A stretch of 64,000 nucleotides of DNA. Source: a virus. This document shows, piece by piece, positions 42,510-63,665 of this stretch (the stretch's first letter is position 1; every line of letters starts with the position of its first letter). The position numbers were made by a program, and so were the translations under genes. Location of the stretch: IMG/VR virus record IMGVR_UViG_3300031772_000023, positions 1-64,000 of that record; one strand, given 5' to 3'. Below the pieces are notes generated by a model that had not been told where the DNA came from, ran no database searches, and saw only the letters and a program-made list of their open reading frames with translations.

Positions 42510-42513
42510 ATAT

Positions 42514-47293: not shown

Positions 47294-47800
47294 TTACAAT
47301 ATTTTTTTAATTATTATTTCAACTCTCTGATTTTTTCTTCTACACTTAAACTGCTCAGGTGGAATTGATTTAATAAATTCTGGACTATCTCCGGAAATTA
47401 TACCCAAAGTAGAGAAACAGTCATAAAGTACTTTTCTTTTACTTGGCAAGTTATCTTCTGTATCAGAAAGTTGCGACACGAATGACTTGAACGAAATCGA
47501 AACTATATCTTTAAATTTAGGAGGATTTAAAGCCGTTAATCTCCACATCATTGCTTTTTTTCTCTTTAATCTATTAGTCCAATGCTCAGACATTAATCCA
47601 TTTCTTCCATTAAGCCCCGGTATAAGCCCAGCAAGTGTTATTTTAACCCAACCTTCACCTATCTCTATTGTATCGCTTACGGTGGTCTCGCTGAGTGAAC
47701 TACGGCCTAGTTTTACGGCCCTAGGAACAGATATAGGCTTTATAATAGCTTTTCGTCCGTATTTGGCTTGATATTCGGAAGCGGACATTTGTTCGGTCAT
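47294..47800 (-). CDS. RusA-like Holliday junction resolvase
   Basis: 168 residues. Residues about 50-168 match RusA: LAGLIPGLNGRNGLMSEHWTNRLKRKK, then DTEDNLPSKRKVLYDCFSTLGIISGDSPEFI (acidic metal-binding residues in D.EDN and GDS, plus basic Lys), and a final RVEIIIKK strand. Would cut Holliday junctions during recombination. 10 bp downstream of the recombinase gene, so both are in one unit. Confidence 0.7.
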   Translation of the reverse strand: MTEQMSASEYQAKYGRKAIIKPISVPRAVKLGRSSLSETTVSDTIEIGEGWVKITLAGLIPGLNGRNGLMSEHWTNRLKRKKAMMWRLTALNPPKFKDIVSISFKSFVSQLSDTEDNLPSKRKVLYDCFSTLGIISGDSPEFIKSIPPEQFKCRRKNQRVEIIIKKIL

Positions 47801-47810: not shown

Positions 47811-48650
47811 TTAAAAGTTTATATTGTTTATTGGAGACTGTATTTTTGAAATTAAGTTGTGTGAGATATGAGTATAGATTTCAGTCGTTCTTACGTCTGA
47901 ATGACCAGCTAGTCTTTTTATAAGTAAAATATCTGTACCCATTTCTACCATGTGTGTGAAAGTGCAATGACGGATAAGGTGTGTATAAACTCTTTTAGAA
48001 AGTCCTGCCGATTTAGCGAGTTGTTTTATTACCTCGCCAACTGATCTTGCCGAATATTGCAAATCATTTTGTCCATTAAAAACATAAATAACGGATTTGT
48101 ATTCTCTGTAATATTTTTCGAGCAATGGGATAACGTTAGGATTCAATCCTACCTGCCTGTCCTTTTTACCCTTTGCTTGAATAATATTTATTATCATCCT
48201 ACTTCTATCAATATGTGACCATTTTAAATTTATTATCTCAGATACACGAAGGCCGCATGAATATAGTAAAGCAAAAATAGTTTTGTGTTTCAGATTCTCA
48301 CATACATTAAACATTCTCTGTATTTCCTCTTGAGATAAAACTATTGGCAGCTTTTTAGATTTCCTCGGACGCTCTATATATTTGAATTTCTCAATTCCAA
48401 CATGAGCGACCTTTTCATAATAAATCTTTATTGCCGAATGATAACCGGAATGGGTTGATGGTTCTTGAAATTGACCAAGGAATTGAATTATCATTTCGTG
48501 ATTAATTCTATCGGGATGAGTAACTTCTTTCCTTTCAAAGTGCGCAAGGAATCCAGTAAAGTTACTACAATAATTACTTACTGATCTAGGAGAGTATTTT
48601 CTAAACTCCATATACTTTCTGAGTTGATTGGTATGCTCTGAAATATTCAT
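47811..48650 (-). CDS. Xer-type tyrosine recombinase (integron-like integrase candidate)
   Basis: 279 residues. SAM-like N-terminal core-binding domain (about 1-95) and a catalytic domain with the full set: R135 (SCGLRVSE), K160 (AKGKKDR), H224 and R227 (THLIRH), H250 (AGHSD) and Y259 (EIYTH). The segment between about 165 and 220 is short and lacks the extra IntI-specific region of integron integrases. The start lies 32 bp from the attI-like site at 48682, and the gene is transcribed away from it, exactly the intI-attI layout. It could also serve phage integration. Confidence 0.8.
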   Translation of the reverse strand: MNISEHTNQLRKYMEFRKYSPRSVSNYCSNFTGFLAHFERKEVTHPDRINHEMIIQFLGQFQEPSTHSGYHSAIKIYYEKVAHVGIEKFKYIERPRKSKKLPIVLSQEEIQRMFNVCENLKHKTIFALLYSCGLRVSEIINLKWSHIDRSRMIINIIQAKGKKDRQVGLNPNVIPLLEKYYREYKSVIYVFNGQNDLQYSARSVGEVIKQLAKSAGLSKRVYTHLIRHCTFTHMVEMGTDILLIKRLAGHSDVRTTEIYTHISHNLISKIQSPINNINF

Positions 48651-48681
48651 TTGATTACTGTTTAATTATTAGATAGTTACA

Positions 48682-48705
48682 TAATATGTAATACATATAC
48701 ATGTT
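48682..48705. other. attI-like site next to the recombinase gene, copy 2
   Basis: GTAATACATATACATGTT preceded by TAATAT; contains the 15-bp palindrome ATATGTAATACATAT (48684-48698), plausible recombinase-binding arms. Identical over 24 bp to 63634-63657. The cassette array begins at the terminal GTT. Confidence 0.75.
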
Positions 48706-48717
48706 CTACGCAATTGT

Positions 48718-48996
48718 TCAAGGGGCAACAGCCACAGCCGTTTTACTATTCTGTATTTCTTCATGCTTTTCAAGTTCCTCTTTGAAATTGTGCATTGCAG
48801 AAATCATACAAGTTAATCCCCCTTCGTAGTTTGCAATCCATTCTTCCCAACCATACGAGCGTTTAATATCGTGCATCTTACCTCTCGTTCTATCTATCTC
48901 ACATCTGAGTTCTTCAATTAATTCACTCATCGGTTTATCCATTTCATCTGCACTTTTGTAGTAAATTGGATTTTGGTCTTTGTTTTTTCTTTCCAT
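48718..48996 (-). CDS. Cassette 1 ORF: helical unknown protein
   Basis: 92 residues, mostly helical (PMSELIEELRCEIDRTRGKMHDI, ISAMHNFKEELEKHEEI). Its last residues (VAVAP) are encoded by the GGGGCAACAGCC motif that lies just inside several cassette borders. First cassette after attI. Unknown. Confidence 0.6.
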   Translation of the reverse strand: MERKNKDQNPIYYKSADEMDKPMSELIEELRCEIDRTRGKMHDIKRSYGWEEWIANYEGGLTCMISAMHNFKEELEKHEEIQNSKTAVAVAP

Positions 48997-49049
48997 TGTG
49001 TTTTATTTTTTAGTTATTAATTTCTTACAGCCGCCCCTTGAACAACTGA

Positions 49050-49139
49050 CGTAGAACAAGCGGGTTTAATTCCATTGTCAAAATCATTTCATCGTTGCGG
49101 GATATTTTGCCAACGAAATAAACCCGCAGGACGTTATAT
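49050..49139. other. attC-like site 1
   Basis: CGTAGAAC left core, GTTATAT right core (49133-49139); stem GCGGGTTT/AAACCCGC. Confidence 0.6.
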
Positions 49140-49164
49140 TCAATTCGTTTTTTCAATTTAAAAA

Positions 49165-49542
49165 TTAAGAGGTTGCTTCGTTGTGGCAACTGCAATCACA
49201 TATACTTTTTGGAAACTCTCCGCAATCGCAATTTTCGCAAGTTCTCCATTTGGGTAATTTTTTTGTGCCTTTAATAAACTTCTGCCATTCATAATTATTT
49301 TTTGGTTCATAGTTCCATGCTTTTCTCAATTCATCTTCGGTGAAAAGTGTTTTGTTTTCGGTAATGATGCGATTGAGCATATCAATTTTGTCCTCATAGT
49401 ATTTTGCCCTGCCATTATCATCTTCAAATTGTAGTGCAAATTCATTCATCGCATCTAAAACTTCTTTCGTGAAGTATTCTGTATTGCCACTTACATTTTT
49501 GAACGGACAATGTTTCTCTAAAATTTCTTTTGCTGTTTTCAT
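49165..49542 (-). CDS. Cassette 2 ORF: protein with Cys-rich tail
   Basis: 125 residues. Helical body (DAMNEFALQFEDDNGRAKYYEDKIDMLNRII) and a C-terminal zinc-like cluster CENCDCGEFPKSICDCSCH. Unknown role. Confidence 0.6.
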   Translation of the reverse strand: MKTAKEILEKHCPFKNVSGNTEYFTKEVLDAMNEFALQFEDDNGRAKYYEDKIDMLNRIITENKTLFTEDELRKAWNYEPKNNYEWQKFIKGTKKLPKWRTCENCDCGEFPKSICDCSCHNEATS

Positions 49543-49597
49543 TTTGATTGTAGTTTATATTGTGAAAGTATTTTTAAATTGAAAAAACGAACTGGAA

Positions 49598-49666
49598 TAT
49601 AACAAGGGATTAAAAGAAATTGGCTGAAAAAAGAAGCCAACTTCTTTAATCCCCGATGCGTTGTGC
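49598..49666. other. attC-like site 2
   Basis: TATAAC and GTTGTGC (49660-49666); arms GGGATTAAAAGAA and TTCTTTAATCCCC plus inner TTGGCT/AGCCAA. Strong, compact. Confidence 0.75.
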
Positions 49667-49712
49667 GCAATTTTTTGTGTATTAAAATGGGCAACAGCCA
49701 CAGCCTGCATAC

Positions 49713-50330
49713 TTAAAATAGTTTTACCTGCATTGTTCGTTCTTTAAAATTTTTCATTGCATCATCATAATATCCTTTGTCAATTTCACACGCCACCAAA
49801 TCAAATTCTTTATAGTGGCAAGCAATGGCAATGTTTCCGCTTCCCAAATGTGTATCGAGTATTTTGTTTCCCTGCTCTGCATATTCCTTTAGCAAAAATT
49901 CATATACTCTTATTGGCTTTTGGCATGGATGAACTTTGCCTCTGTAATCTCCTTTTGCCAATGGGTCACGCTTGTAAATTTTTGCGCATCTATCAAATGA
50001 AGTCCATGCCATTTCACATTCGGCATAAGTTCTATTTTTGAAACCTTCGCCTTTATCCCAAATCACAAAGCATCTTGTCGGTGGCAATCCAAAATAATTT
50101 CCACCCCATATAATTTGATTTTTGCTAACTCTAAATAGTTCATCAAAATATGCTTTGTCTGGGATTGCCTTATCCCAATCCTTCTTTTCAAAATTATTGA
50201 AGCCTTTATATCCAACATTGCCACCATCCATTCCAATTCCATAAGGCGGGTCAACTATTGCCAAATCAAAATGCTGGTCAGGATATTCTGCCATTAACTT
50301 CATGCAGTCTATGTTTCTAATATCAATCAT
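49713..50330 (-). CDS. Cassette 3 ORF: DNA (N4/N6) methyltransferase
   Basis: 205 residues from MIDIRNIDCMKLM; a longer frame would translate the attC. Motif IV FDLAIVDPPYGIG near residue 22, then the target region, then KVHPCQKPIRVYEFLLKEYAEQGNKILDTHLGSGNIAIAC (motifs X-I, with HLGSGN as SAM-binding) and EIDKGYYDDAMK. DPPY before the SAM motif makes it a beta-class enzyme. May protect phage DNA from restriction; specificity unknown. Confidence 0.85.
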   Translation of the reverse strand: MIDIRNIDCMKLMAEYPDQHFDLAIVDPPYGIGMDGGNVGYKGFNNFEKKDWDKAIPDKAYFDELFRVSKNQIIWGGNYFGLPPTRCFVIWDKGEGFKNRTYAECEMAWTSFDRCAKIYKRDPLAKGDYRGKVHPCQKPIRVYEFLLKEYAEQGNKILDTHLGSGNIAIACHYKEFDLVACEIDKGYYDDAMKNFKERTMQVKLF

Positions 50331-50377
50331 AACAGCCGCCCATTTTAATACACAAAAAACTGTAAAGGCTAAAGCCC

Positions 50378-50495
50378 GCACAACATAGGGTTTGCACTAA
50401 TTTTCCTTCAACTTTTTTATTCTGTTTCATTTGTTTCAGTCAAACCGTTTGAGGCAAACGCCCTTCGGGTAGTCAAACCCTTGAACTTAAATGCA
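50378..50495. other. attC-like site 3 (degenerate right core)
   Basis: GCACAAC left; GGGTTTG/CAAACCC arms (50388-50394, 50474-50480); right end TTGAACTTAAATGC lacks a clear GTT. Contains the CCCTTCGGGTA loop segment. Confidence 0.5.
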
Positions 50496-50762
50496 ATAGC
50501 TACGACCCCGCTCCGTAAGTTCAACTTTGCCATTTTTGCGTTCAACCAATTTATAATCCTCAAGTTTGTATATTGTTGCCCAACTAATGTTTTTCATAGC
50601 ATTATTTGAGTAAAAACATATTGCGTTAATGCCAGATAGATAGTATATAATCTCGTTAGCTTGTAAAGTTGATATTACTTCCTTTTGAGCTTTAGATAAT
50701 TTAACCGCTACTGCATTTAACACGGGTTTGGCAAAAAAGCCGTTTTGGTCTTCGTTTGACAT
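50487..50762 (-). CDS. Cassette 4 ORF: winged-helix-like protein
   Basis: 91 residues. The C-terminal part (ISWATIYKLEDYKLVERKNGKVELTERGRSYCI) looks like the wing of a winged helix; the middle is helical. Possibly DNA-binding. The first residues are near an unusually GC-rich attC. Confidence 0.55.
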   Translation of the reverse strand: MSNEDQNGFFAKPVLNAVAVKLSKAQKEVISTLQANEIIYYLSGINAICFYSNNAMKNISWATIYKLEDYKLVERKNGKVELTERGRSYCI

Positions 50763-50853
50763 ATTGTTCTAATTTTTAAGTTTTGTAATTCTATTTGACT
50801 TTTCGTTTCGGCTTCTTCGCCAAGCCCGCAACCGTTGCACCGCAAGGCGGTGC

Positions 50854-50970
50854 AACTAAGTCCGCGTACCGCGTGCCGCCCTGCGGGCAACATCCCGTTT
50901 GATGCCAGCGCCGGGCATTGATGTGAAGCCACATCTGCCCGCGCCCGCACAAACGCGGACAGTTGGGCGC
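50854..50970. other. attC-like site 4 (GC-rich)
   Basis: ACTAAG left; GTCCGCG (50860-50866)/CGCGGAC (50954-50960); right core GTTGGGC (50962-50968) matches GTTRRRY. Preceded by a perfect GC-rich hairpin GTTGCACCGC/GCGGTGCAAC (50834-50856). Base composition is unlike the surrounding phage. Confidence 0.7.
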
Positions 50971-50983
50971 AATTTGTATTTGT

Positions 50984-51190
50984 TCAAAGGGGGCTAACAG
51001 CCAACGACACCTCATGGTCTATATAGTTATACATTTTCATTTTAAATTTCTCTTTCCCTCCCAATAATTTTATACTGCTTTTTTTAACCCACAAAAAAGA
51101 TAATGGAATTGCTTTGTCCTTTATCGGCTTTCTTCCTGCACCTTTTCGTGCGCCCCCTCGTTTTGATTTTTTCATGTTCTCTGTCCGCAT
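50984..51190 (-). CDS. Cassette 5 ORF: small basic protein
   Basis: 68 residues; N-terminus KKSKRGGARKGAGRKPIKDK is the common GG.RKGAGRK motif of phage small terminase-like and DNA-binding proteins. A start at the internal ATG (51175) is equally possible. May bind DNA. Confidence 0.55.
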   Translation of the reverse strand: MRTENMKKSKRGGARKGAGRKPIKDKAIPLSFLWVKKSSIKLLGGKEKFKMKMYNYIDHEVSLAVSPL

Positions 51191-51212
51191 TGAAGCGCAC
51201 GGCTGAACCGCA

Positions 51213-51254
51213 GAGAAACCGTCCTACTGACTTAGCAGAACAGCAGGATTACGC
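51213..51254. other. attC-like site 5 (compact, degenerate)
   Basis: AGAAACC left, GTCCTACTG (51221-51229)/CAGCAGGAT (51241-51249), right core ATTACGC. Weak; supported by its place between ORFs and by the stop codon in the core. Confidence 0.4.
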
Positions 51255-51677
51255 TTCAACTGAATTATTCTTTTTCAGTAATTCTACAAGCTCCTCCATT
51301 GAATTTTTAAGCCGACTAATTTCATCTTTCAAATCGTCAATGATTGGCTCTTTATAAACATGGTATTTATTATAATTTGACCAGCCGATTGAATAAAGAA
51401 GTGACTGAATTTTGTAGGTGCTTCCCATGATTTTGCATTTATCTACATGAGAATAGTCGAGTTTATTCGGGTCTCTTTCTTCTTCTGGAGTACCATACTG
51501 ATAATCCTTACCAAATTCAATCTGTTCAATAATAATATCATCCAAATCATCATTGGTTTCAATTATAAAAGAGGAATTATAATCCTCAATAAATAATGAT
51601 TCACCTGTTTCAGTGATGACTCTGAATCCACATTCGTGTGGATGTTTTTTCCATGAAATAATCTTTTTTGTTTTCAT
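51249..51677 (-). CDS. Cassette 6 ORF: unknown protein with C-terminal coiled coil
   Basis: 142 residues from MKTKKIISWKKHP. Beta-rich first half (GFRVITETGESLFIEDYNSSFII), acidic middle, and a C-terminal coiled coil (LKDEISRLKNSMEELVELLKKN). Its TAA is inside the attC core. Unknown. Confidence 0.55.
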   Translation of the reverse strand: MKTKKIISWKKHPHECGFRVITETGESLFIEDYNSSFIIETNDDLDDIIIEQIEFGKDYQYGTPEEERDPNKLDYSHVDKCKIMGSTYKIQSLLYSIGWSNYNKYHVYKEPIIDDLKDEISRLKNSMEELVELLKKNNSVEA

Positions 51678-51834
51678 TGTGCTAAGTTTTAATTGTTGAT
51701 GTTTTGATTTGTAACGTAAAGATAAGTATTTAATTTGAATTGGCAATAGGTTTAATCAAATATATTTTCAATACAAGAATAGTGCCAAAACAGCCGCCCC
51801 CTTTGAACAAATACAAACTGCAAGGGCTAAAGCC

Positions 51835-51953
51835 CGCCCAACATAGGATTTGCAGTAATTGGTCATTTCCTTTTTTATTTTTTTCATATTGATAAATGCC
51901 CAACCAAAACGAGGCGTTTTGCCCTTCGGGTACTCAAACCCTCACCATTATCC
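51835..51953. other. attC-like site 6
   Basis: GCCCAAC left; AGGATTTG/CAAACCCT arms; right core ATTATCC. Shares sequence with site 3 (GGCTAAAGCCCGC, CCTTCGGGTA), so the two are related. Confidence 0.55.
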
Positions 51954-52301
51954 GCAAGCGTTCAAAGGGGCAACAGCCTCCCAGCCAATCCCATTCGCCA
52001 TTTCTTCTTTCAACATTTTCTGTAATGCAGGTAATATTTTCTCCGCAAATCTGTTACAAGCTGTTTCGCATTTTTTGCCATACAAAATGTAAGCCATTCC
52101 TGTGTACATTTTAGTTCCGAAGTAACCAATATTTAAACCGATTAGAAAATCTCGGAAATCTTTATCTCCGTAACTTCTCCAAGCAAAGGAAAGGTTTCCC
52201 CAATCCGTAACCGATGCGAACATTCCATCTGATGTTAGAACTATTTGTCCTAACCATTCTCCATTGTCGCCTTTCAGCGAGTAACTTTTTGATTGTACCA
52301 T
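51948..52301 (-). CDS. Cassette 7 ORF: unknown conserved-looking protein
   Basis: 117 residues: SYSLKGDNGEWLGQIVLTSDGMFASVTDWGNLSFAWRS reads like a small beta domain, followed by helices (CETACNRFAEKILPALQKMLKEE). I recall similar small proteins from mobile elements but cannot name the family. Stop TAA supplied by the attC core. Confidence 0.6.
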   Translation of the reverse strand: MVQSKSYSLKGDNGEWLGQIVLTSDGMFASVTDWGNLSFAWRSYGDKDFRDFLIGLNIGYFGTKMYTGMAYILYGKKCETACNRFAEKILPALQKMLKEEMANGIGWEAVAPLNACG

Positions 52302-52308
52302 TTTGTTT

Positions 52309-52503
52309 TTATGTTTTAGTTATTGTTTCAAGTTTCTTACAGCCGCCCCTTTGAACGCCAGACGGATAACATCGGATATAGTCAAGTAAAATTTCCTTCT
52401 CATAGTTGCTATTGATAAATTTTCCCTGCCCATATCCGTCAGCGTTAGCAGACATTGTAATTATTAAAAAAACAAAAGCCACCGCACTCTTTAAATTTTT
52501 CAA
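52309..52503 (-). CDS. Doubtful ORF with a signal-like N-terminus running through an attC
   Basis: 64 codons: the first 20 residues (SAVAFVFLIITMSANA) look like a signal peptide, but the rest is translated attC stem. It shares a cassette with the methyltransferase at 52518. May be a real gene fused by recombination to the attC, or chance. Confidence 0.3.
   Translation of the reverse strand: MKNLKSAVAFVFLIITMSANADGYGQGKFINSNYEKEILLDYIRCYPSGVQRGGCKKLETITKT
52363..52450. other. attC-like site 7
   Basis: CGGATAAC left; CGGATAT (52373-52379)/ATATCCG (52432-52438); GTTAGCA right core (52444-52450). Confidence 0.7.
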
Positions 52504-52517
52504 ATTTATAAAATGTT

Positions 52518-53063
52518 TTATTTCGTAATCGTTTCAAACACTATCTTCTTTGGTAAAATATCCTTCGTAACATACACACTTGAAAACGGAGGGTTCAAAC
52601 TCGGTTTTTGGTCTGCATAGCTTTTAAAGTAGCTTATCCGTTTATTAAAATACATTATTTCAAATTCGTTATCCTTAAACATATTAAATCGTTTTTGGCT
52701 TTCAAACAATCCAACTACTCCAACAAGCATCGCAAATGGTTTTCCAAGTTCAAATAGTTTTTGGAATACTTCTGCTTTAATTGAGTAGGGCGGATTTGAA
52801 ATAATGTAATCAAAGTTCACAAGAAATTCAGTTGTAAAAAAATCTCTACCATCTGAAATATGTGAGCAAATAGCATCGTGTCCTTGTTCTCTAAGCATTT
52901 TTACAAAGTTACTTTCTTCCGTATCAAACGGACACCACACAATACTTTTTGGCTTCAAGTATTTCATAAGCGGTTCTATTGCATATCTTGGTGTATAAAA
53001 TTCATCATTCGGATTTATTTCTCCGTTCATTTCTGCTTTGTTTGTAATCTCGTCCAGTTTCAT
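52518..53063 (-). CDS. Cassette 8 ORF: methyltransferase-like protein (NPPYS)
   Basis: 181 residues. After ...FYTPRYAIEPLMKYLK, motif IV is NFDYIISNPPYSIKAEVFQKLFELGKPFAMLVG; the end (SYADQKPSLNPPFSSVYVTKDILPKKIVFE) is typical of phage adenine-specific DNA methylases. The SAM-binding loop is poor (WCPFDTEESNFV), as in several phage homologues. Confidence 0.75.
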   Translation of the reverse strand: MKLDEITNKAEMNGEINPNDEFYTPRYAIEPLMKYLKPKSIVWCPFDTEESNFVKMLREQGHDAICSHISDGRDFFTTEFLVNFDYIISNPPYSIKAEVFQKLFELGKPFAMLVGVVGLFESQKRFNMFKDNEFEIMYFNKRISYFKSYADQKPSLNPPFSSVYVTKDILPKKIVFETITK

Positions 53064-53156
53064 ATTTCTTAGTTTAAATTAAGAGCCGACACACACCTTC
53101 CCTTTTTGTTTTTTTAATAATTACAACGAGCCTACGCTCAAAATCCCACCGCACTC

Positions 53157-53223
53157 TGCTAACACTGGGTTTAACGTCAGTTTGCGAAAAGCAAACCGAA
53201 CGTAAACCCAGATACCGTTATGC
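53157..53223. other. attC-like site 8 (long stem)
   Basis: TGCTAAC and GTTATGC (53217-53223); arms TGGGTTTAACGT..GTTTGC and GCAAAC..ACGT.AACCCA. One of the best examples. Confidence 0.85.
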
Positions 53224-53442
53224 GTAATTATTCAGCAACGCCACTACCTTAACCGCCATTTCTCTATCACCCCAAAAGCCCTCACACACTCTACGGTCAC
53301 ACCATAAATCTAAATGTGTTCGTGGCTTATCGTGTTCACCAATTTCATAGTATCTAACCTTCCCTCTAACCACTTCTCTGAACACATAACTGCGCATAAC
53401 AGGAAGATTAGAAGAAATTTCTTTTTTGTTTTCAGTTTCCAT
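53218..53442 (-). CDS. Cassette 9 ORF: small protein, start inside attC loop
   Basis: 74 residues. Its ATG lies in the loop of attC site 9, so the first ~15 residues (KKEISSNLPVM) are encoded by the attC arm; the TAA is the core of site 8. The body (SYVFREVVRGKVRYYEIGEHDKPRTHLDLWCDRRVCEGFWGDREMAVKVVALL) seems globular. Unknown. Confidence 0.55.
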   Translation of the reverse strand: METENKKEISSNLPVMRSYVFREVVRGKVRYYEIGEHDKPRTHLDLWCDRRVCEGFWGDREMAVKVVALLNNYA

Positions 53443-53534
53443 ATTGAGTTTTGTTTTTAATTATTAGCATTTCGTTTTCAATCAAAGTTTGCGGAGACAA
53501 AAAAGAAACTTCTCTAATCTCCGATGCGTTACCC
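53394..53534. other. attC-like site 9 (about 26-bp arms)
   Basis: CGCATAAC and GTTACCC (53528-53534). Arms GGAAGATTAGAAGAAATTTC and GAAACTTCTCTAATCTCC, extended by CTTTTTTGT/ACAAAAAAG. Confidence 0.8.
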
Positions 53535-53559
53535 AAAATAAAAGTGGGCAATTAGCATC

Positions 53560-53709
53560 CTACTTTGAAAATGCTTTTATATATTGTTTAATCGTTGCCT
53601 TTTTAAATCCTCGTCTCATTAATTGGCTAACGATTACACCATTTGTTTTTCCGTCTCCGAGCAAGTATCTTACTTGCCATTGGAGGTCTCGCTTTTCTTC
53701 GTTTGTCAT
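53560..53709 (-). CDS. Cassette 10 ORF: small helical protein
   Basis: 49 codons (MTNEEKRDLQWQVRYLLGDG...RRGFKKATIKQYIKAFSK). Two to three helices, the last basic, could be a minimal helix-turn-helix. Placed exactly between attC sites 9 and 10. Confidence 0.55.
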   Translation of the reverse strand: MTNEEKRDLQWQVRYLLGDGKTNGVIVSQLMRRGFKKATIKQYIKAFSK

Positions 53710-53754
53710 AATATTTATTTTAAAAGTTAATTTTCGTTTTGCCCACTTTTACTT

Positions 53755-53856
53755 CGGGTAACATAGTTTTGTGTGCCAGTTGGCTTCACCATTTTATTTT
53801 CTTCAATTTGTTTCATCCAACCGTTCCCTTCGGGCAACAAAACTTGTCCGTTATCG
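53755..53856. other. attC-like site 10
   Basis: GGGTAAC and GTTATCG (53850-53856); AGTTTTGT/ACAAAACT arms; loop with CCTTCGGGCAAC. Confidence 0.7.
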
Positions 53857-53870
53857 GTCAGCACTACATT

Positions 53871-54122
53871 TCATTGAAAAGATAATGATTCTAACTCCCA
53901 CTTAGCGGACTTATGCGAAAAAACTAATGCTGTACCCCATCCTGCATGTGGGACTAAAACATCATAACTAATATACTTCCAATTTTCAAAGTATGTTTGT
54001 AAAAACACTACATACCCATCAATTTCTATTGGTATCCAAGCAAACTTCTTTGCTTTACATACTTGTCCAATAAAATAATTTTCTTTAACAAGTATCTTTT
54101 TTTCTCTTTTTTTAAACTTCAT
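53871..54122 (-). CDS. Cassette 11 ORF: small unknown protein
   Basis: 83 residues, basic N-terminus then beta-rich (WIPIEIDGYVVFLQTYFENWKYISYDVLVPHAGWGTALVFSHKSAKWELESL). No family recognised. Confidence 0.55.
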   Translation of the reverse strand: MKFKKREKKILVKENYFIGQVCKAKKFAWIPIEIDGYVVFLQTYFENWKYISYDVLVPHAGWGTALVFSHKSAKWELESLSFQ

Positions 54123-54178
54123 AAAACATTAATTTTTGACGTTAGCAATAACTCCTCTATAATTTTACCCGTGCCGAA

Positions 54179-54314
54179 CCGATAACAAGGGGTTTTGTGC
54201 TATTGCGGCTTGACGTTCTTAATTTCAACATTTGTTTTTCAATCGGGCTGCATCTGTGGTTTGAACTGCGGTAATTCTATTTCCGCAACAGACACAAAGC
54301 CCTGTTCGTTATAA
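54179..54314. other. attC-like site 11
   Basis: CCGATAAC and GTTATAA (54308-54314); GGTTTTGTGC with CACAAAGCC, inner TTGCGG/CCGCAA. Related to sites 13 and 15. Confidence 0.75.
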
Positions 54315-54334
54315 AACATTGCCATTCCAGTTCA

Positions 54335-54505
54335 TCAATGAAAGTGGGTGCATCTATAACATTCAACATTTCTATTTTCACATTCCCTATGCCAAAAGGA
54401 ATGGCAACGCTTTATAACAGGAAGATTTGAAGAAATTTTATTTACTTCCTTATCTGCTTTTTTAGGCGTTTTTGCTTTAACTTTCTTTACTGCTTTTTTC
54501 ATCAT
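54335..54505 (-). CDS. Cassette 12 ORF: Lys-rich N-terminus, attC-encoded body
   Basis: 56 codons: KKAVKKVKAKTPKKADK then the attC arm (NKISSNLPVIKR) and a Cys/His-rich end. Start codon lies in the attC loop. A second frame (...IEMLNVIDAPTFIDELEW) is also open, so the real product of this cassette is unsure. Confidence 0.35.
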   Translation of the reverse strand: MMKKAVKKVKAKTPKKADKEVNKISSNLPVIKRCHSFWHRECENRNVECYRCTHFH

Positions 54506-54557
54506 TTGTGCTTTTAAGTCGTAAATAAAACATTCTCAAATCTCCGATGCGTTAGTG
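54412..54557. other. attC-like site 12
   Basis: TTATAAC and GTTAGTG (54551-54557); arms GGAAGATTTGA...TTTTATTTAC and GTAAATAAAA...TCAAATCTCC. Closely related to site 9. Confidence 0.75.
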
Positions 54558-54564
54558 GCAAGTG

Positions 54565-54750
54565 CTACATTTCGTCTTCGTAAAAACATTTGCCTTTAGT
54601 GCTAAAATATTCTTTTGCCCACTCTTTACCTTTCCCGTTCAATAATGCTTCTACAAAATCAGCTATGATATTTGCACCGTCACAATGTCCATCTGGACCA
54701 TCGTTAATCATTATGTCGCTAATAATATTTTCAATTTGTTCTTTGTTCAT
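54565..54750 (-). CDS. Cassette 13 ORF: small acidic protein
   Basis: 61 residues, acidic, helical (QIENIISDIMINDG, ANIIADFVEALLNGKGKEWAKEYF). Unknown. Confidence 0.6.
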   Translation of the reverse strand: MNKEQIENIISDIMINDGPDGHCDGANIIADFVEALLNGKGKEWAKEYFSTKGKCFYEDEM

Positions 54751-54774
54751 TTTTCGTTTAATTTACCGCACCAG

Positions 54775-54878
54775 CCACTAACAGTGGTTTTGTGCTATTA
54801 TTTTGGCTATAAAATTTATCTTTAAAGGTAAGTGTCTGCAAGCCAAAATAACAGACACAAAGCCACGAAACGTTGTAG
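54775..54878. other. attC-like site 13
   Basis: CCACTAAC and GTTGTAG (54872-54878); arms GTGGTTTTGTGCTATTATTT and its near-complement ending GACACAAAGCCAC. Very strong. Confidence 0.85.
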
Positions 54879-54885
54879 GCAATGG

Positions 54886-55152
54886 CTAAGAGTGTTCAAT
54901 CATTGCCTGTGCTATAAAAATTGTTTCCTCTCCCTTATGCACAAATTGTTGATTAGGTATTACTTTCATCACATAGCCACTTGTGTATTCAAGCACCGTG
55001 TCTGTTTCACTATCATAGTCGGCAACAATTTTATCCGACCACTCAAATAGCACTTGCACAGGCAAATTAACTATTCGGATGTCGCCACTGCCTACAACAT
55101 TGTGTTGCTGCAATTGTGGCAATTCCCACTTAAATTCATCTTTGTTTTTCAT
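54886..55152 (-). CDS. Cassette 14 ORF: small beta-rich protein, start inside attC loop
   Basis: 88 residues from MKNKDEFKWELPQ; this ATG is in the attC loop, and the longer frame to 55257 would translate the whole attC and enter the next cassette. IRIVNLPVQVLFEWSDKIVADYDSETDTVLEYTSGYVMKVIPNQQ looks all-beta. Unknown. Confidence 0.55.
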   Translation of the reverse strand: MKNKDEFKWELPQLQQHNVVGSGDIRIVNLPVQVLFEWSDKIVADYDSETDTVLEYTSGYVMKVIPNQQFVHKGEETIFIAQAMIEHS

Positions 55153-55225
55153 ATCAAGTTTTTGTTTGTTATTCAACTTTTGTCTTTCAAATGCCACAAC
55201 TGACAGCAACACCTTACCGTTATAC
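55092..55225. other. attC-like site 14
   Basis: CTACAAC and GTTATAC (55219-55225); GTGTTGCTG/CAGCAACAC outer arms and TTGTGGC/GCCACAA inner arms. Confidence 0.75.
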
Positions 55226-55244
55226 GCAAGGCTACCATTCATTT

Positions 55245-55736
55245 TCATATTGAGCATTTCGGTAAGGTTTTAAAGATTGTATCACCCTCCCATCCACGCT
55301 TCATTTCTAAAATACAGGTTTGAACTCTGCTTCCTTTGAAAGTGCTTCGTGGCAAATGTGTAATTGATTTTAGCCCCCATTCCATAATATCCTTTGTCCT
55401 TTTCTCTCCGTTTATAATTGCCAAATAAGGCATCAGAGCAATTATATTATCCGTCATATCCATACACTTGTAAAGGATATCATACCCTTGCTTCATTGGG
55501 CTAAATGGTGGGTTCATCACTATCCATTCAAATTGGCTTTCCACCATTTTATTAAAATCATTTGGCACAATCACTTTTCCGTATTGCTCTAATGCCTTTA
55601 CAAGTTTTCCTTTGCCAGCAGTGGGCTCTAAAATCAAACCTGTATTTCCAATAAGAAATGAAGCCATATACTCACACACATTTTCGGGTGTTTGAAAATT
55701 ATCGCCCCAATCTTTAAAATCTTTTTCTTCTTCCAT
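55245..55736 (-). CDS. Cassette 15 ORF: methyltransferase-like protein (NPPF)
   Basis: 163 residues. Motif I ILEPTAGKGKLVKAL (SAM binding), then VPNDFNK, motif IV FEWIVMNPPFSPMKQGYDILYKCMDM and a catalytic-domain end (STFKGSRVQTCILEMKRGW). Gamma-like order, N6-adenine methyltransferase fold. Short for a DNA methylase; may methylate DNA or act without a target domain. Confidence 0.75.
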   Translation of the reverse strand: MEEEKDFKDWGDNFQTPENVCEYMASFLIGNTGLILEPTAGKGKLVKALEQYGKVIVPNDFNKMVESQFEWIVMNPPFSPMKQGYDILYKCMDMTDNIIALMPYLAIINGEKRTKDIMEWGLKSITHLPRSTFKGSRVQTCILEMKRGWEGDTIFKTLPKCSI

Positions 55737-55766
55737 ATCAATATTTTCTCTTAATTAACCGCCCAG

Positions 55767-55864
55767 CGTATAACACGGTATTTGTGCTATTTTGCCATTG
55801 GGCTTTATCTATAATTTGAACATTTGTGCAAGGCAAAACAGACACAAATACCCATCCGTTAGTT
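55767..55864. other. attC-like site 15
   Basis: GCGTATAAC and GTTAGTT (55858-55864); GGTATTTGTGCTATTTTGCC pairs with GGCAAAAC..ACACAAATACC. Confidence 0.85.
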
Positions 55865-55889
55865 ACCTGCAAGTGCTACGATACTGCTA

Positions 55890-56615
55890 CTATTGAACAT
55901 TTGTGGGAGAAAATTTAAAAAGTTTTTCCACGCTCTTAAAATTATTCTGTTTACTTAACGTGTTACTTAATTCCATCTCCCAAACACATTCAAAGTCAAT
56001 AGGTGCGTTATATTCACTCACAAATACTGTGCGTCCTTCTTTTGATTTATCCCTACACCATTCCCAAAATTCAATATGGTCTATTCCGTTTTTGTATTTT
56101 ATAGTCCCTTCGTATGGTGGGTCGCAATAAATGATTGAGTTTGGTGGTATTTCTAAATTCTTATAATCAGATTGAACAAAATGAACTGATATTAAATTAG
56201 GTATTTGCTTTATCAAACCACGTCTTGCTTCATCTTGATGATTAGGTAATTTTCCGTTTTTTAATCTTTTTGATTCTTGATAGTCACTCAAATAACCACC
56301 AAACCATTTCCCTCCATAGCTACAACATATTCCTGCCCATACAGTCATTTTACTATCTCTATCTTGGTTTTGTTTAATATATTCATATTCATCCCTACTT
56401 ATTCTTAATGGTGGTGTCCATCCATCTTGCAATGCTTTATAAAATTCAATTAAATGTTTGTTATAATCAGAAGCAAGTCTTAAACCTTCAACTTTATCGG
56501 TGATGTTTGCTCCACCAACAAAAGGCTCAACAAACCATTGATTAGGTTTTCTATCATTTAGTATTATTGGTAAAATGTGTTTTGCAATTCTACTTTTATT
56601 TCCTGTATATCTCAT
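55890..56615 (-). CDS. Cassette 16 ORF: Dam-like (D12 class) adenine methyltransferase
   Basis: 241 residues. N-terminal MRYTGNKSRIAKHILP and FVEPFVGGANI (SAM-binding motif I), target-recognition region 90-165, then SIIYCDPPYEGTIKYKNGIDH (motif IV DPPY) and VFVSEYNAP. Full length for the D12/Dam family. Likely the most typical DNA modification enzyme of the array; GATC specificity cannot be read here. Confidence 0.85.
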   Translation of the reverse strand: MRYTGNKSRIAKHILPIILNDRKPNQWFVEPFVGGANITDKVEGLRLASDYNKHLIEFYKALQDGWTPPLRISRDEYEYIKQNQDRDSKMTVWAGICCSYGGKWFGGYLSDYQESKRLKNGKLPNHQDEARRGLIKQIPNLISVHFVQSDYKNLEIPPNSIIYCDPPYEGTIKYKNGIDHIEFWEWCRDKSKEGRTVFVSEYNAPIDFECVWEMELSNTLSKQNNFKSVEKLFKFSPTNVQ

Positions 56616-56683
56616 ACTCTAAAACTTTTTTAATTTTCTATTCGTTTTCAAATCAAAATCCTGCTAAATTAACCGCACCAGCA

Positions 56684-56754
56684 GGTAACAGCACCCTTAA
56701 CGCAAGTGGGCTGAAAAAAGAAGCCCACCAGCGTAAGGCTGCAATCCGTTATAG
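56684..56754. other. attC-like site 16
   Basis: GGTAAC and GTTATAG (56748-56754); arms GCACCCTTAACGC / GCGTAAGGCTGC and inner TGGGCT/AGCCCA. Confidence 0.8.
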
Positions 56755-57012
56755 GAAATTTATGGATTTTAGGTATTTCTCAACACCTTCCTTTATTCCT
56801 AAACTTTGGTTGTGTATTCCTTCACATTCCATTGATTGACAAAAATCCATAAACATTCCTATAACATCGGGTTTATGAAATTTTTTAACCTCACTTTCTG
56901 CAAACTCCGAGAGTAGGTCTTCTAATCTAAAGTAGTTTTCAGGTGCGGTTTCATCAGCAACATTTGCACCTACATAAATCTTTTTGCTTCTTAAAAATTC
57001 TCTTGTATTCAT
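56749..57012 (-). CDS. Cassette 17 ORF: small unknown protein
   Basis: 87 residues, mostly helical (NYFRLEDLLSEFAESEVKKF, GIKEGVEKYLKSINF). ATG lies in the loop of attC 17; TAA is in the core of attC 16. Unknown. Confidence 0.55.
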   Translation of the reverse strand: MNTREFLRSKKIYVGANVADETAPENYFRLEDLLSEFAESEVKKFHKPDVIGMFMDFCQSMECEGIHNQSLGIKEGVEKYLKSINFL

Positions 57013-57065
57013 TTTGTTATATTTAAACGGTTAAAAAACTATCATAAACCCGAATCACGTTATGC
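56858..57065. other. attC-like site 17 (long loop)
   Basis: CCTATAAC and GTTATGC (57059-57065); perfect arms CGGGTTTATGA (56868-56878)/TCATAAACCCG (57042-57052). The ~160-nt loop includes the N-terminal half of the ORF. Confidence 0.7.
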
Positions 57066-57069
57066 GTAA

Positions 57070-57360
57070 TTAAAAGAACTCGTTAATCATAGCATCTACT
57101 GTTGGCTTTAAGAACCTGAAATACTCTCTTTTGTGTTCAGCAATATCTTCTTCATTTATCCCAAACCAAAAGATAATTGGCAAAGGAATTTCAAACTCTT
57201 TTGATATTGTTTCTAATACGCTAATGTTTGGAGTTTTTGCTCCAGTTTCAATTTGTGATAAGTATGTTTGAGTTATACCTATCAATTTTGCAAACTCCGA
57301 CTGATTTAATTGCGGTGTTCGCTCTTTTCTAATGTTTCTAATTGCTATTCCTACATTCAT
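57070..57360 (-). CDS. Cassette 18 ORF: XRE-family regulator
   Basis: 96 residues. XRE domain at 1-60: IRNIRKERTPQLNQSEFAKLIGITQTYLSQIETGAKTPNISVLETISKEFEIPLPIIF. Has its own well-formed promoter. Could control this cassette, neighbouring cassettes or host genes. Confidence 0.8.
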   Translation of the reverse strand: MNVGIAIRNIRKERTPQLNQSEFAKLIGITQTYLSQIETGAKTPNISVLETISKEFEIPLPIIFWFGINEEDIAEHKREYFRFLKPTVDAMINEFF

Positions 57361-57381
57361 AATTTTATGTTATTTATTAAG

Positions 57382-57412
57382 CAAAGGTAATAATTATTTC
57401 TGACAAAACAAA
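57382..57412 (-). promoter_or_regulatory. Bacteroidetes-type promoter inside cassette 18
   Basis: Minus strand TTTG (57409-57412), 19-bp spacer, TACCTTTG (57382-57389), ideal for the Bacteroidetes housekeeping sigma factor; 21 bp before the XRE start. Shows that at least one cassette carries its own promoter. Confidence 0.75.
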
Positions 57413-57431
57413 TTTATCTTAAAAATATTAA

Positions 57432-57845
57432 CTACGCATAATAGCAGAAATAAAAAATTTGCTCATAGCGTTCTGTGCTTCGGTTCAACATACGCCACGC
57501 CAATCCTATCAAACAGGTCTTTTTCCTCACGCACTTCATAGCTTTTGCCATTCTGCATAAGGTAGCCACCTTCGCTTTTTGCCATTGGTTCACTATCTCC
57601 GCTATGCCATCCTGAAAAAGACCAGCTTGATAGGGCTTTGGAATTGCTACTATCTCAATGTCCTTTACTTCGCTTTTCTCCCTGCGTATGCTTCCTGCAA
57701 TCTCACATCTTATGCAATGTGGTTGTAGCAATTCCAACACACGCACCGCTATCGAATGGGCTTCATCGTAAGCAAATTTTTTACTATCCGCTAACACACC
57801 ATTGGAAGTAATGGCGGTCTTTTCGGTATCATTTTGCTTTTTCAT
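57432..57845 (-). pseudogene. Cassette 19: decayed PolX-like nucleotidyltransferase gene
   Basis: 137 codons. Residues 24-90 (YDEAHSIAVRVLELLQPH..RCEIAGSIRREKSEVKDIEIVAIPK) match the palm start of DNA polymerase X/beta-type nucleotidyltransferases (GSIRR, then acidic motif). After NQWQKAK the frame is wrong: the other frame continues GGYLMQNGKSYEVREEKDLFDRIGVAYVEPKHR, the typical PolX end of the palm/thumb. So a frameshift plus loss of the central palm, including part of the catalytic site. Stop runs into the neighbouring attC. Confidence 0.65.
57436..57476. other. attC-like site 18 (compact)
   Basis: GCATAAT left, AGCA(G)AAAT / ATTTGCT arms with one bulged base, right core GTTCTGT (57470-57476). 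Small but in the expected place. Confidence 0.45.
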
Positions 57846-57916
57846 ATTATTTATCTTTTAGTTGTTAATCAAAATTATCTTTTCTATTCCGCCACTACTC
57901 CAATGGTCGGTTAGCC
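57788..57916. other. attC-like site 19
   Basis: CCGCTAAC and GTTAGCC (57910-57916); arms ACCATTGGAAGTAATGGCGG and CCGCCACTACTCCAATGGT. Confidence 0.85.
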
Positions 57917-58138
57917 GCCATTTAAAAGACGCTTTATCGTTCTATAATCTTCAACCTCTTTATGTAATGCTTTTAATCCTTCAATTTGCATTTCTAAGTC
58001 TTGTTTTACCACTTCGTTTGTTTGTCTAACCAGTTCTTTTTGTAAGTCTGCTGCAATCCGTAACAATAAACGGCTGCTAACAACACCTAAACAAGATGGC
58101 TGGTTTTCGTTTTCTAATGAAGTTTTGTCTGTATTCAT
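57911..58138 (-). CDS. Cassette 20 ORF: small helical protein
   Basis: 75 residues; helical from about 25 (RLLLRIAADLQKELVRQTNEVVKQDLEMQIEGLKALHKEVEDYRTI). ATG lies in the loop of attC 20; the TAA is the core of attC 19. Unknown. Confidence 0.55.
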   Translation of the reverse strand: MNTDKTSLENENQPSCLGVVSSRLLLRIAADLQKELVRQTNEVVKQDLEMQIEGLKALHKEVEDYRTIKRLLNGG

Positions 58139-58205
58139 AATTTTGTGATTTTAATTAAGTTTTGTGGTGGAATACGCCACCTCGTTTAGCTGCAAAATGT
58201 TAGCA
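58075..58205. other. attC-like site 20
   Basis: TGCTAAC and GTTAGCA (58199-58205); CTAAACAAGATGGC (58087-58100) pairs with GCCACCTCGTTTAG (58176-58189). Confidence 0.75.
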
Positions 58206-58211
58206 CCAATA

Positions 58212-58397
58212 CTACTTTAGTGCTTCGTCCAATCTTCCGAGAACAACTAACAATGTTTTGCGTTTAATATCGCATTTCATTGCAGCTTCAAAATCCTCTG
58301 CTTTTTTATAGTCTTCAATGTGGTTGTATAGTTGCTCTATTCGATTAACCATATCCATTCTCATTCTTTCAATGTTTTCTCTTAATGTTTCTTTCAT
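58212..58397 (-). CDS. Cassette 21 ORF: small coiled-coil protein
   Basis: 61 residues, one long charged helix pair (LRENIERMRMDMVNRIEQLYNHIEDYKKAEDFEAAMKCDIKRKTLLVVLGRLDEAL), like small UVR/coiled-coil proteins. Last cassette of the array. Unknown. Confidence 0.6.
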   Translation of the reverse strand: MKETLRENIERMRMDMVNRIEQLYNHIEDYKKAEDFEAAMKCDIKRKTLLVVLGRLDEALK

Positions 58398-58431
58398 CGT
58401 TTTTAATTTTATCGTTAATAATCCGTACTGG

Positions 58432-58488
58432 TGCTAACAGCGTATAAAAGCCATTGAAAAAACGGCTCTTATACGCCAACCGTTCCAG
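58432..58488. other. attC-like site 21 (right end of the array)
   Basis: TGCTAAC and GTTCCAG (58482-58488); GCGTATAAAAGCC (58440-58452)/GGCTCTTATACGC (58464-58476). Confidence 0.85.
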
Positions 58489-58526: not shown

Positions 58527-58727
58527 TTAATTTTTATAAAAATATTTAGTGATCTTACGCATATCTTTTGAAAAGGTTACGCTAAATCCATTTTTAATAT
58601 CTAATTTCCAGTTTATGATTATTTTTATTGCCTCCTTTTGATGTTCGTTTATGTAATGCCATTCTCCCATATTCATTTTAATGAGTTCCTGAAGCAAACC
58701 GTTTTTATAATCTGAAGATATATTCAT
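58527..58727 (-). CDS. Small phage protein downstream of dnaB
   Basis: 66 residues, overlaps the dnaB stop by 4 bp (ATGA), so translationally coupled. Helical (NGLLQELIKMN, HQKEAIKIIINWKLDI). First phage gene right of the cassette array. Unknown; replication accessory by context. Confidence 0.6.
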   Translation of the reverse strand: MNISSDYKNGLLQELIKMNMGEWHYINEHQKEAIKIIINWKLDIKNGFSVTFSKDMRKITKYFYKN

Positions 58728-60124
58728 TTATAATGGTTTTCTGTTATGTTCCTATCGTAAAATATTGTCATAGATTTATTGCAACCATAAAAAACACTTC
58801 CAGTATCACCATTTCGATGTTTCTCTATTATCAATTCCCCTTCACCTACAAGTGATCTTCCATCTTCGCTAGTAATTCCGTCTTTATGAGGATAATAAAT
58901 AAAAATTACAATATCGGCATCTTGCTCGATCGCGCCTGATTCTCGAAGATCAGAAAGTTTTGGCCTCATACTTCCCCCCCTCTTTTCTACATCTCGCGAA
59001 AACTGAGATAGTGCAATTATGCAAACATTAAATTCTTTTGCAATTGATTTTAAGTTTTTGGAAATATACGCTACTTCGTTTTCTCTATTATTAATAGTCT
59101 TTTCGTTAGGAACAGTCATTAATTGCAAATAATCAACGCCAACTAAAACAACTTTATGATCTCTAACTAATCTTTTAATGCGCTTTCTCAATTCAAATAT
59201 TGAAAGAGATGGAGTATCATCAAGGTATATTGGCAATTTAGCTAATTCTATTTCCTTGGATTTTAAGTGTTCTAGTTGATAATGCTGCAGGTCTCCATCA
59301 CGATAATTATAAGAATTTACAGCTGTTTCTCCCAATATGGCCCTATCTGTAATGTTAATATTTTCCATTTCTAAAGAAAATAAAGCGGACGGCTTACCTA
59401 ACCTAGCAGCACTTTTAATAAAATGTATAACCAGCGCAGACTTACCTCTTCCGGGTCGAGCTGCTAATATTACCAATGTTTTCTTCTTCCACCCACCAGT
59501 AAATTTATCCAAATCTGTTAGTCCAGTTGGAATCCCAATCACTCTACCATGTTTAAATGCCTCTATTCGCTCAGAAAGGGCTATTGCGGAGGCGTTCAGC
59601 GATTCAGCAAATGTTTGTATTGTTTTTGCTGTAGAGTTGTCTATTTCGCTTAAAAAGCGGCTGGAACTATTAATCAATTCAAATACATCGGTAGTATCGT
59701 CATAAGCCTTTTGTACAGTTTCGGTTGCAATTCTTATTATTTCTCGTTTGTAGTACTTTTCTAAAATGATTCTGCAATGCACTTGAATATTAGATGCTGA
59801 AGCTATGTTATTAGTTAGTTTTGTGACATAATGCGCTCCTCCAGCTATATCTAAAGTTCCCAATTTTAGTAATTCTTGCGTTGTAGTTAAAATGTCAATA
59901 GAATCACCCCTATTTTTTTGCTTCAAACTAAATATTGCCTTGCAGATTTCCTGATGCGCTTCTTTGTAGAAAGCATCTGGTTTTATTATCTCCAGTGCAT
60001 TTTCCAAACCTTCTTTGTCCAACATCATTGCTCCAAGAACTGCTTCTTCAATATCTAAAGCCTGTGGAGGAATTTTACCAAGTTCAATAAGTTGCTGAGG
60101 TGTTATATTTTGTTTGTATTTCAT
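58724..60124 (-). CDS. dnaB: Replicative DNA helicase (DnaB family)
   Basis: 466 residues. N-terminal DnaB domain (PPQALDIEEAVLGAMMLDKEGLENALEII...FYKEAHQEI), linker, then the RecA-like ATPase: Walker A ARPGRGKSAL, DdaB-like Walker B VVLVGVDYLQLM, H4 motif IIALSQFSRDVEKRGG..P.LSDLRESGAIEQDADIVIFI and the final arginine-finger area KHRNGDTGSVFYG. Full length. Unwinds DNA at the phage fork; needs a loader, likely the initiator at 60893. Confidence 0.9.
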   Translation of the reverse strand: MKYKQNITPQQLIELGKIPPQALDIEEAVLGAMMLDKEGLENALEIIKPDAFYKEAHQEICKAIFSLKQKNRGDSIDILTTTQELLKLGTLDIAGGAHYVTKLTNNIASASNIQVHCRIILEKYYKREIIRIATETVQKAYDDTTDVFELINSSSRFLSEIDNSTAKTIQTFAESLNASAIALSERIEAFKHGRVIGIPTGLTDLDKFTGGWKKKTLVILAARPGRGKSALVIHFIKSAARLGKPSALFSLEMENINITDRAILGETAVNSYNYRDGDLQHYQLEHLKSKEIELAKLPIYLDDTPSLSIFELRKRIKRLVRDHKVVLVGVDYLQLMTVPNEKTINNRENEVAYISKNLKSIAKEFNVCIIALSQFSRDVEKRGGSMRPKLSDLRESGAIEQDADIVIFIYYPHKDGITSEDGRSLVGEGELIIEKHRNGDTGSVFYGCNKSMTIFYDRNITENHYK

Positions 60125-60281
60125 TTAAAAAGGGGTTTTATTTGTTTCTGAAATTGACCTATTAGCCGATTCTTCATTTTTAAGTACTTGATATAAAGCG
60201 TTACATATTTGAGAATTATATGATACTCCATATCTTTTCTTTTCTTCCATCCATTTACTGAAATCAGAATGTATTCTAATG

Positions 60282-60686
60282 TTAGCGGTAATACTGCGAC
60301 ATCGCTTCGTAGAAAGTTTTTGCCATATTTTCAAATTCTGCCAAATCAATGTTTTTGCTTACACACATATCAATTCTATCTTCACCTAAAACCATACACT
60401 CATACATTATTCCTATTCTGTTTGCGTATGGGTCACGGTCTGCGTACTTTCTAAAATCATAAAACAATATGCCTATTTGATAAATTTTATCTTCACCATT
60501 TTTTAAAGTTTTCCAATAACAGAAATCCTCGTTTTTATGATTTTGAACGTATCTTCTATATCCTATTTCTTTTAGTTTAGTTTCCGTTTCAGATAACCAT
60601 TCATCCCAAGAAGTACTACCGCTAACATCCGCTATAAGTAATGGCGGTTGAAGTGGTAAATCAATGTTTGTGCTTTTTATTGTCAT
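60282..60686 (-). CDS. Lone-cassette ORF, unknown protein
   Basis: 134 residues from MTIKSTNIDLPL (ATG in the attC loop after an A-rich leader; an upstream ATG at 60725 is possible). Mixed fold: DWLSE-type helix near 30 (WDEWLSETETKLKEIGYRRYVQ), strands (DFCYWKTL, YQIGILFYDFRKY, RIGIMYECMVLGEDRIDMCVSK) and a last helix (LAEFENMAKTFYEAMSQYY). TAA from the attC/junction core. Unknown. Confidence 0.65.
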   Translation of the reverse strand: MTIKSTNIDLPLQPPLLIADVSGSTSWDEWLSETETKLKEIGYRRYVQNHKNEDFCYWKTLKNGEDKIYQIGILFYDFRKYADRDPYANRIGIMYECMVLGEDRIDMCVSKNIDLAEFENMAKTFYEAMSQYYR

Positions 60687-60750
60687 TTGTACTGAATTTA
60701 AAGTGAGTAGTTCTAAATCCGCCACTACTCATAGCGGAGTACCGTTAGCG
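60619..60750. other. attC-like site of the lone cassette
   Basis: CCGCTAAC (60619-60626) and GTTAGCG (60744-60750); TCCGCTATAAGTAATGGCGG pairs with CCGCCACTACTCATAGCGGA at 18 of 20 positions. Confidence 0.85.
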
Positions 60751-63657: not shown

Positions 63658-63665
63658 AGCCACAA

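Follow-up and report, generated by a model that had tools for sequence, protein, structure and literature searches.

Whether a phage can own an integron, with its own recombinase, attachment site (attI) and array of gene cassettes recombining at hairpin sites (attC), is the question raised by the locus at 47811-58488 of the viral record IMGVR_UViG_3300031772_000023. The record has 67,984 bases, of which bases 1-64000 were analyzed and are called the window below. A preliminary description of this DNA had proposed a phage-borne integron of unusual design. Our analysis supports this proposal and adds further oddities, namely an integrase without the segment specific to integron integrases (IntI), reversed genes and start codons within the attC loop. 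Judging from sequence comparison, the locus is very probably a phage-encoded integron of a phage-adapted lineage, and a probably functional one. Its recombinase would act on attI and on the hairpins of attC, by which single-gene cassettes would be inserted, excised and put into a new order.

Hairpin sites, cassette ends and attI

Reading the array by hand led to 21 hairpin sites between 49051 and 58488 and to 21 cassettes (Table 1). This is the number of sites given in the preliminary description. In score, the hairpin sites stand far above shuffled or other window sequence. A scan for hairpins with AAC...GTT cores found 17 array sites scoring at least 13, compared with 0 and 0 in two shuffles, 0 at 31000-42700 of the window and 1 at 5000-16700. 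The cores, given as TAAC...GTTR in the preliminary description, fit RYYYAAC...GTTRRRY with hairpin arms, apart from three mutated ones (AAG after cassette 4, AAT after cassette 7 and ATT at cassette 18). The alternation of these sites with 21 single open reading frames (ORFs) proved correct for the number of cassettes but not for the content of each, as cassette 5 is gene-less, cassette 6 has two ORFs and cassette 19 is decayed at one end, with an ORF that seems to be frameshifted.

Complementarity between the two ends of the same unit is a hallmark of integron cassettes. Here, of the 20 cassettes with both ends, 19 have a start core whose four variable bases are all complementary to the cassette's own end core, compared with 1.6% of other pairings, and none of 20,000 permutations reached this match (79 observed vs. 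a permutation maximum of 52). Terminal complementarity runs past the core, over ~25 bases in the best cases. Shortly after the start core, cassettes 3, 6 and 8 also harbor an additional small hairpin (GGGCTTTAGCCC or a different GC-rich insert) that the matching end does not have. A covariance model built only from the sites of other phages, with a four-base loop, matched four array sites (E-values 0.0001-0.016) and one site outside the array (2550-2616), missing the long-loop array sites because of that loop size. Matches to a model of attC-like sites speak for the preliminary description. Classical or chromosomal attC sites were not convincingly found with this phage-site model, and Rfam gave no match.

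The attI-like site lies where it had been placed before, as an AAC core followed by a conserved box (Table 1), 55 nucleotides (nt) ahead of the recombinase's own start codon. The family consensus of the box is TAAC followed by TACTATATGTA, established from 43 non-redundant loci, mostly 52-56 nt ahead of the recombinase start codon, and different cassettes follow the common box across these loci. An identical attI sequence is adjoined by four different cassettes, and in the relatives the bases preceding the attI AAC are the complement of the first cassette's start. Null windows on the opposite strand have lower scores overall, yet they overlap at the top, partly due to palindromic sites. The boundaries of the array are one-sided, with a half-site at attI and a full hairpin at the far end.

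Cassette movement among related phages

Relatives were searched with the recombinase as query and then with a 13-row alignment. The recombinase has relatives in ~80 viral contigs (up to 349 kb) and in three contigs of metagenome-assembled genomes. At the loci of relatives, attI leads directly on to the first cassette. The same search recovered a class 1 integron with attI1. The comparison shows joint inheritance of recombinase, attI and array in many phages, and, in line with the gene shuffling proposed in the preliminary description, the cassettes at this place beside the same recombinase differ from one related phage to another. Eight contigs (L060-L067) have identical recombinase genes and differing arrays. 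L061 and L062 are 99.99% identical across 6.86 kb from attI on, and just upstream they are unrelated. L062 and L064 have four cassettes in common (331, 287, 339 and 311 bp) that are 100% identical and stand in another order, with all ends at the AAC core; one of them lies next to attI in L062 and next to the hairpin of another cassette in L064. Since identical cassettes are reordered between arrays with the breaks at the AAC core, cassettes do move in nature and, on the evidence of these contigs, as units bounded at the core. As a group, these phages seem to gather genes and to exchange them by means of their cassettes.

The attC sites are partly alike, which lends some plausibility to homologous recombination or misassembly at repeated hairpins as the source of the array differences. 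However, the breaks fall exactly at TAAC between unlike hairpins, and misassembly is disfavored because every arrangement is present in three contigs that stem from different data sets; this explanation is scarcely credible. It could also be proposed that a host IntI moves the cassettes in trans, which can befall attC clusters that lack an integrase, and that the neighboring recombinase is an ordinary lysogeny integrase of the phage, given that IntI1 recognizes attC clusters of virulent phages (PMC9892861) and that 105 of 395 Bacteroidota genomes have IntI genes above the curated cut-off. We consider it highly improbable, as dozens of phages retain the recombinase, an attI box at near-fixed distance and the array as a set, and it is exactly at the attI box that different cassettes are joined. 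Cassette movement would instead be performed by the phage recombinase itself.

The units common to L062 and L064 run from a hairpin AAC to the next AAC, therefore a cassette comprises a hairpin and the gene downstream of it. Assignment of the hairpin to the upstream gene was rejected, as the half-site would then be at the wrong end and genes would be cut off from their start codons, and as the L062/L064 cassettes contradict it.

The recombinase and the IntI-specific segment

The complete tyrosine recombinase gene of the preliminary description is confirmed by an intact ORF with a Pfam Phage_integrase match of 3e-35. R135, K160, H224, R227, H250 and Y259 are invariant in the 13-row alignment. 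The distance from the Lys box to the HxxR box is 64 residues in the window recombinase and in the short chromosomal relatives, vs. 105-106 in five IntI. With the integron integrase model TIGR02249 it scores 162.7 bits, under the cut-off of 265, and among the family libraries it scores best as XerA-like. In the tree, the phage recombinases form one supported clade separate from IntI and Xer, while the short chromosomal recombinases fall into other clades; the method was a quick one, with some long branches, and the deep order is unsure. The structure model (predicted local distance difference test 82, predicted template modeling score 0.59) has XerA (5hxy) as its first match and Vibrio IntI as the next, and with template modeling scores of 0.5-0.57 these matches add little beyond the alignment.

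Several points weigh against an integron. The ~42-residue IntI-specific segment (I2 helix; LPxALxRKYPNA in five IntI) is absent from the recombinase. This extra domain is held to distinguish IntI (PMC9024848) and to have enabled single-strand recombination (PMC7790495); either the segment is dispensable or the recombinase acts on double strands. Furthermore, the extra hairpin bases of the relatives are not consistently on one arm as in classical attC (gaps 61 vs. 91), the hairpin scanner was written after these sites had been seen, the close relatives all come from metagenome contigs, and the record, a linear one of 67,984 bp, may lack part of the genome.

Gene direction, start codons and hairpin strand

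Seen from the recombinase, the layout is the textbook one of attI followed by cassettes, but the genes run backwards, toward the recombinase, and the textbook gene orientation (attI toward attC) is not found in the array of the window. Almost all phage loci have this direction, while in Bacteroidota chromosomes the genes point away from the recombinase at most loci where the array is clear. The phage cassette genes would presumably be transcribed from the phage early-gene side and not from an integrase-side promoter (Pc in the textbook integron). The start codon of the cassette gene is often supplied by the hairpin loop. An ORF starting in the hairpin and running on through the core is present at 59 of the 138 sites of the phage relatives, vs. 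12 of 138 in the other direction; at chromosomal-array sites read in the same direction, ORF starts lie in the hairpin at 5 of 32.

Concerning the strand, 113 sites of the phage relatives form the more stable hairpin on the strand that codes for the recombinase and 24 form the less stable one there (p = 5e-15), because G.T wobbles sit in excess on that strand (246 vs. 21). Chromosomal arrays have the same bias (23 vs. 8 sites; wobbles 64 vs. 6) although their genes mostly run the opposite way, so the bias goes with the recombinase rather than with the transcript. This favors, indirectly, a folded DNA strand as the substrate. The folded single-stranded attC would be used despite the missing IntI segment, and phage replication would supply the single strands.

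A competing explanation, in which the recombinase moves the cassettes by double-strand, Xer-like recombination at the 7-bp cores while the hairpins serve translation or transcript folding, is in accordance with the missing I2 helix, the XerA-like best score and the start codons in the loops. We regard it as rather unlikely, because the hairpin strand bias tracks the recombinase rather than transcription, the hairpins recur in the chromosomal relatives, where most of them contain no start codon, and the one-sided boundaries are those of an integron. XerA, XerC and XerD share their domain make-up with the recombinase, and XerA (5hxy) is its best fold match; these enzymes act on dif sites in chromosome resolution and have no cassette array.

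Comparison with known integrons

The locus has in common with bacterial integrons (class 1 and Vibrio chromosomal) a divergent integrase by attI, a cassette array with RYYYAAC/GTTRRRY cores, own-end complementarity, hairpin attC sites and cassettes that are reordered. It differs from them by the integrase without the IntI-specific segment, by the reversal of genes within the cassette, by its location on a phage, by start codons that often lie in attC and by terminal complementarity of up to ~25 bp. The system works like an integron, yet of the defining features tested it departs from two, namely the IntI domain and gene direction.

That phages carry integrons is already known (PMC9892861). Qi et al. 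(2023) described complete phage integrons with bacterial IntI and other attC clusters without an integrase (CALINs), and 5 of the 6 attC sites that they tested recombined with IntI1 (PMC9892861). Attachment sites of the attC type in phages, including a Bacteroidota phage, and methyltransferase cargo are common to both studies, whereas here a phage lineage owns the recombinase and attI. The lineage was not found described in the open-licence literature, most subscription journals and all preprints lying outside the search. As far as the literature searched shows, three things are new: a lineage of phages that owns a segment-less integrase together with attI, genes that are reversed and have their start codons in attC, and the reordering of cassettes between sister phages, seen by direct comparison.

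On chromosomal Bacteroidota contigs (L132, L133, L202, L164, L167, L168, L170 and L178), attC-type arrays lie beside segment-less recombinases of 270-280 amino acids, with genes mostly in the textbook direction. These arrays would be integrons that IntI-based searches would miss; IntegronFinder 2.0 reported only one newly found complete integron in Bacteroidetes, that of Salinibacter ruber (PMC9024848). The arrays at L114/L132, L130/L133, L202, L164, L167 and L170 share with the phage loci the segment-less recombinase by an attC-type array and the hairpin strand bias, and differ in that their genes mostly point away from the integrase, few start codons lie in attC, the attI sequence is another one and the recombinases belong to separate clades. 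Arrays beside related recombinases on Bacteroidota chromosomes could suggest that a phage captured a bacterial chromosomal integron recently and by accident. This possibility is already disfavored and has next to no likelihood, as the phage recombinases are a supported clade of their own, the gene direction is reversed and the attI box is phage-specific.

We find it reasonably likely that Bacteroidota and their phages hold a separate integron class whose integrase needs no I2 helix to recombine folded single-stranded attC, and that in phages it has been turned round, with attC doubling as translation start, giving a pool of exchangeable counter-defense genes that phages share. People and software recognize IntI by its extra domain. 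Mobile arrays beside a domain-less enzyme would mean that this domain is not required and that most integrons of Bacteroidota and their phages have escaped notice. A phage gene-capture platform with several methyltransferases would also be a direct way to study the viral shuffling of counter-defense genes.

Cassette cargo and genomic surroundings

DNA methyltransferase-like proteins are encoded by cassettes 3, 8, 15 and 16, and a helix-turn-helix (HTH) regulator by cassette 18, while most other cassette products are small proteins with no informative match. The four methyltransferase-like genes and the regulator suggest counter-defense against restriction, which is the likely benefit of the cargo. 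The HTH cassette (57070-57440) has, unlike its neighbors, an apparent promoter motif of its own of the Bacteroidota type (TAnnTTTG) upstream.

Table 1. Recombinase, attI-like site and cassettes in the window; the cassette rows rest mainly on the hairpin scan and on end-core matching.
Feature	Position	Strand	Content
Tyrosine recombinase, integron-type integrase without IntI-specific segment	47811-48650	(-)	279 amino acids; Pfam, NCBIfam and PDB matches
attI-like site	48686-48705	(-)	AAC core 48705-48703, then conserved box ATGTATATGTATTACAT
Cassette 1	48703-49139	(-)	attC 49051-49139; ORF 48718-48996; core 7/7, extended terminal match
Cassette 2	49133-49666	(-)	attC 49597-49666, also by covariance model; ORF 49165-49542
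Cassette 3	49660-50492	(-)	attC ~50378-50492, left core AAG; N6/N4 DNA methyltransferase, ATG at 50327
Cassette 4	50486-50840	(-)	attC 50715-50840; ORF 50487-50762, start within attC loop
Cassette 5, gene-less	50834-50968	(-)	23 bp between end cores (50834-50856); attC ~50850-50968
Cassette 6	50962-51953	(-)	attC ~51836-51953, left core AAT; two ORFs, 51249-51701 and 50984-51190
Cassette 7	51947-52450	(-)	attC 52364-52450; ORF 51948-52301
Cassette 8	52444-53223	(-)	attC 53157-53223, also by covariance model; EcoRI-type DNA methyltransferase 52518-53063
Cassette 9	53217-53534	(-)	attC 53394-53534; ORF 53218-53442, start within attC loop
Cassette 10	53528-53856	(-)	attC 53756-53856; ORF 53560-53709
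Cassette 11	53850-54314	(-)	attC 54180-54314; ORF 53871-54122
Cassette 12	54308-54557	(-)	attC 54412-54557; ORF 54335-54505, start within attC loop
Cassette 13	54551-54878	(-)	attC 54776-54878; ORF 54565-54750
Cassette 14	54872-55225	(-)	attC 55092-55225; ORF 54886-55145, start within attC loop
Cassette 15	55219-55868	(-)	attC 55768-55868; DNA methyltransferase-like ORF 55245-55736
Cassette 16	55862-56754	(-)	attC 56683-56754, also by covariance model; Dam/D12-type DNA methyltransferase 55890-56615
Cassette 17	56748-57065	(-)	attC 56859-57065, long loop; ORF 56749-57012, start within attC loop
Cassette 18	57059-57470	(-)	weak attC ~57436-57470, right core ATT; HTH regulator 57070-57360
Cassette 19, recombinase-proximal end decayed	57432-57916	(-)	attC 57789-57916; ORF 57432-57845, start within attC loop, frameshifted-looking
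Cassette 20	57910-58205	(-)	attC 58075-58205; ORF 57911-58138, start within attC loop
Cassette 21, distal array end	58199-58488	(-)	attC 58432-58488, also by covariance model; ORF 58212-58397
Solitary cassette	60281-60746	(-)	attC 60626-60746 and gene; 10/10 end match
Solitary cassette	63655-64000, to ~64016 in the record	(-)	attC 63933-64016; 10/10 end match
Two further cassettes	1793-2616	(-)	attC 2148-2268, matching end; attC 2550-2616, partly decayed end

The array is placed within a minus-strand block of early genes, with a DnaB-type helicase (58724-60124) on one side and a RusA-like resolvase (47294-47800) on the other. One portal protein and virion proteins of the record match phage families, and the relatives of the portal are Cellulophaga phages phi38:1 and Calle and the Flavobacterium elemo phages (28-31% identity). 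These relatives point to a host that is probably a Bacteroidota bacterium. A closer portal relative (L024; 74% identical, 74.7 kb) has neither a recombinase nor a DnaB relative, and therefore it gives no empty site; few relatives of the window DnaB were found.

Cassettes also occur outside the main array (Table 1), and these may be secondary-site insertions or remains.

Regarding other carriers of the system, the recombinase frame of L009/L031 (G008) is read through one TAG codon and may belong to a pseudogene or to a phage that reassigns TAG. Relatives L097, L098 and L044 lie in contigs of 208, 349 and 213 kb, so very large phages may have the system as well. Among cultured phages, Freya and Ingeline gave no clear array, and Polaribacter P12002L, a published phage with attC sites, has candidate hairpins and no annotated integrase. 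The cultured Polaribacter phage Leef_1 (L159; MT732473.1) bears a divergent copy at 427-1971, where an annotated integrase lies beside an attI-like half-site and attC-type cassettes, and its gene Leef1_37 starts within a hairpin. The integrase gene of Leef_1 has been taken as a sign of a temperate life style (PMC8776804). Genes annotated as integrase in such phages should not count as proof of lysogeny. Finally, the window has a single tRNA gene, a tRNA-His with a GTG anticodon at 1137-1210 on the minus strand.

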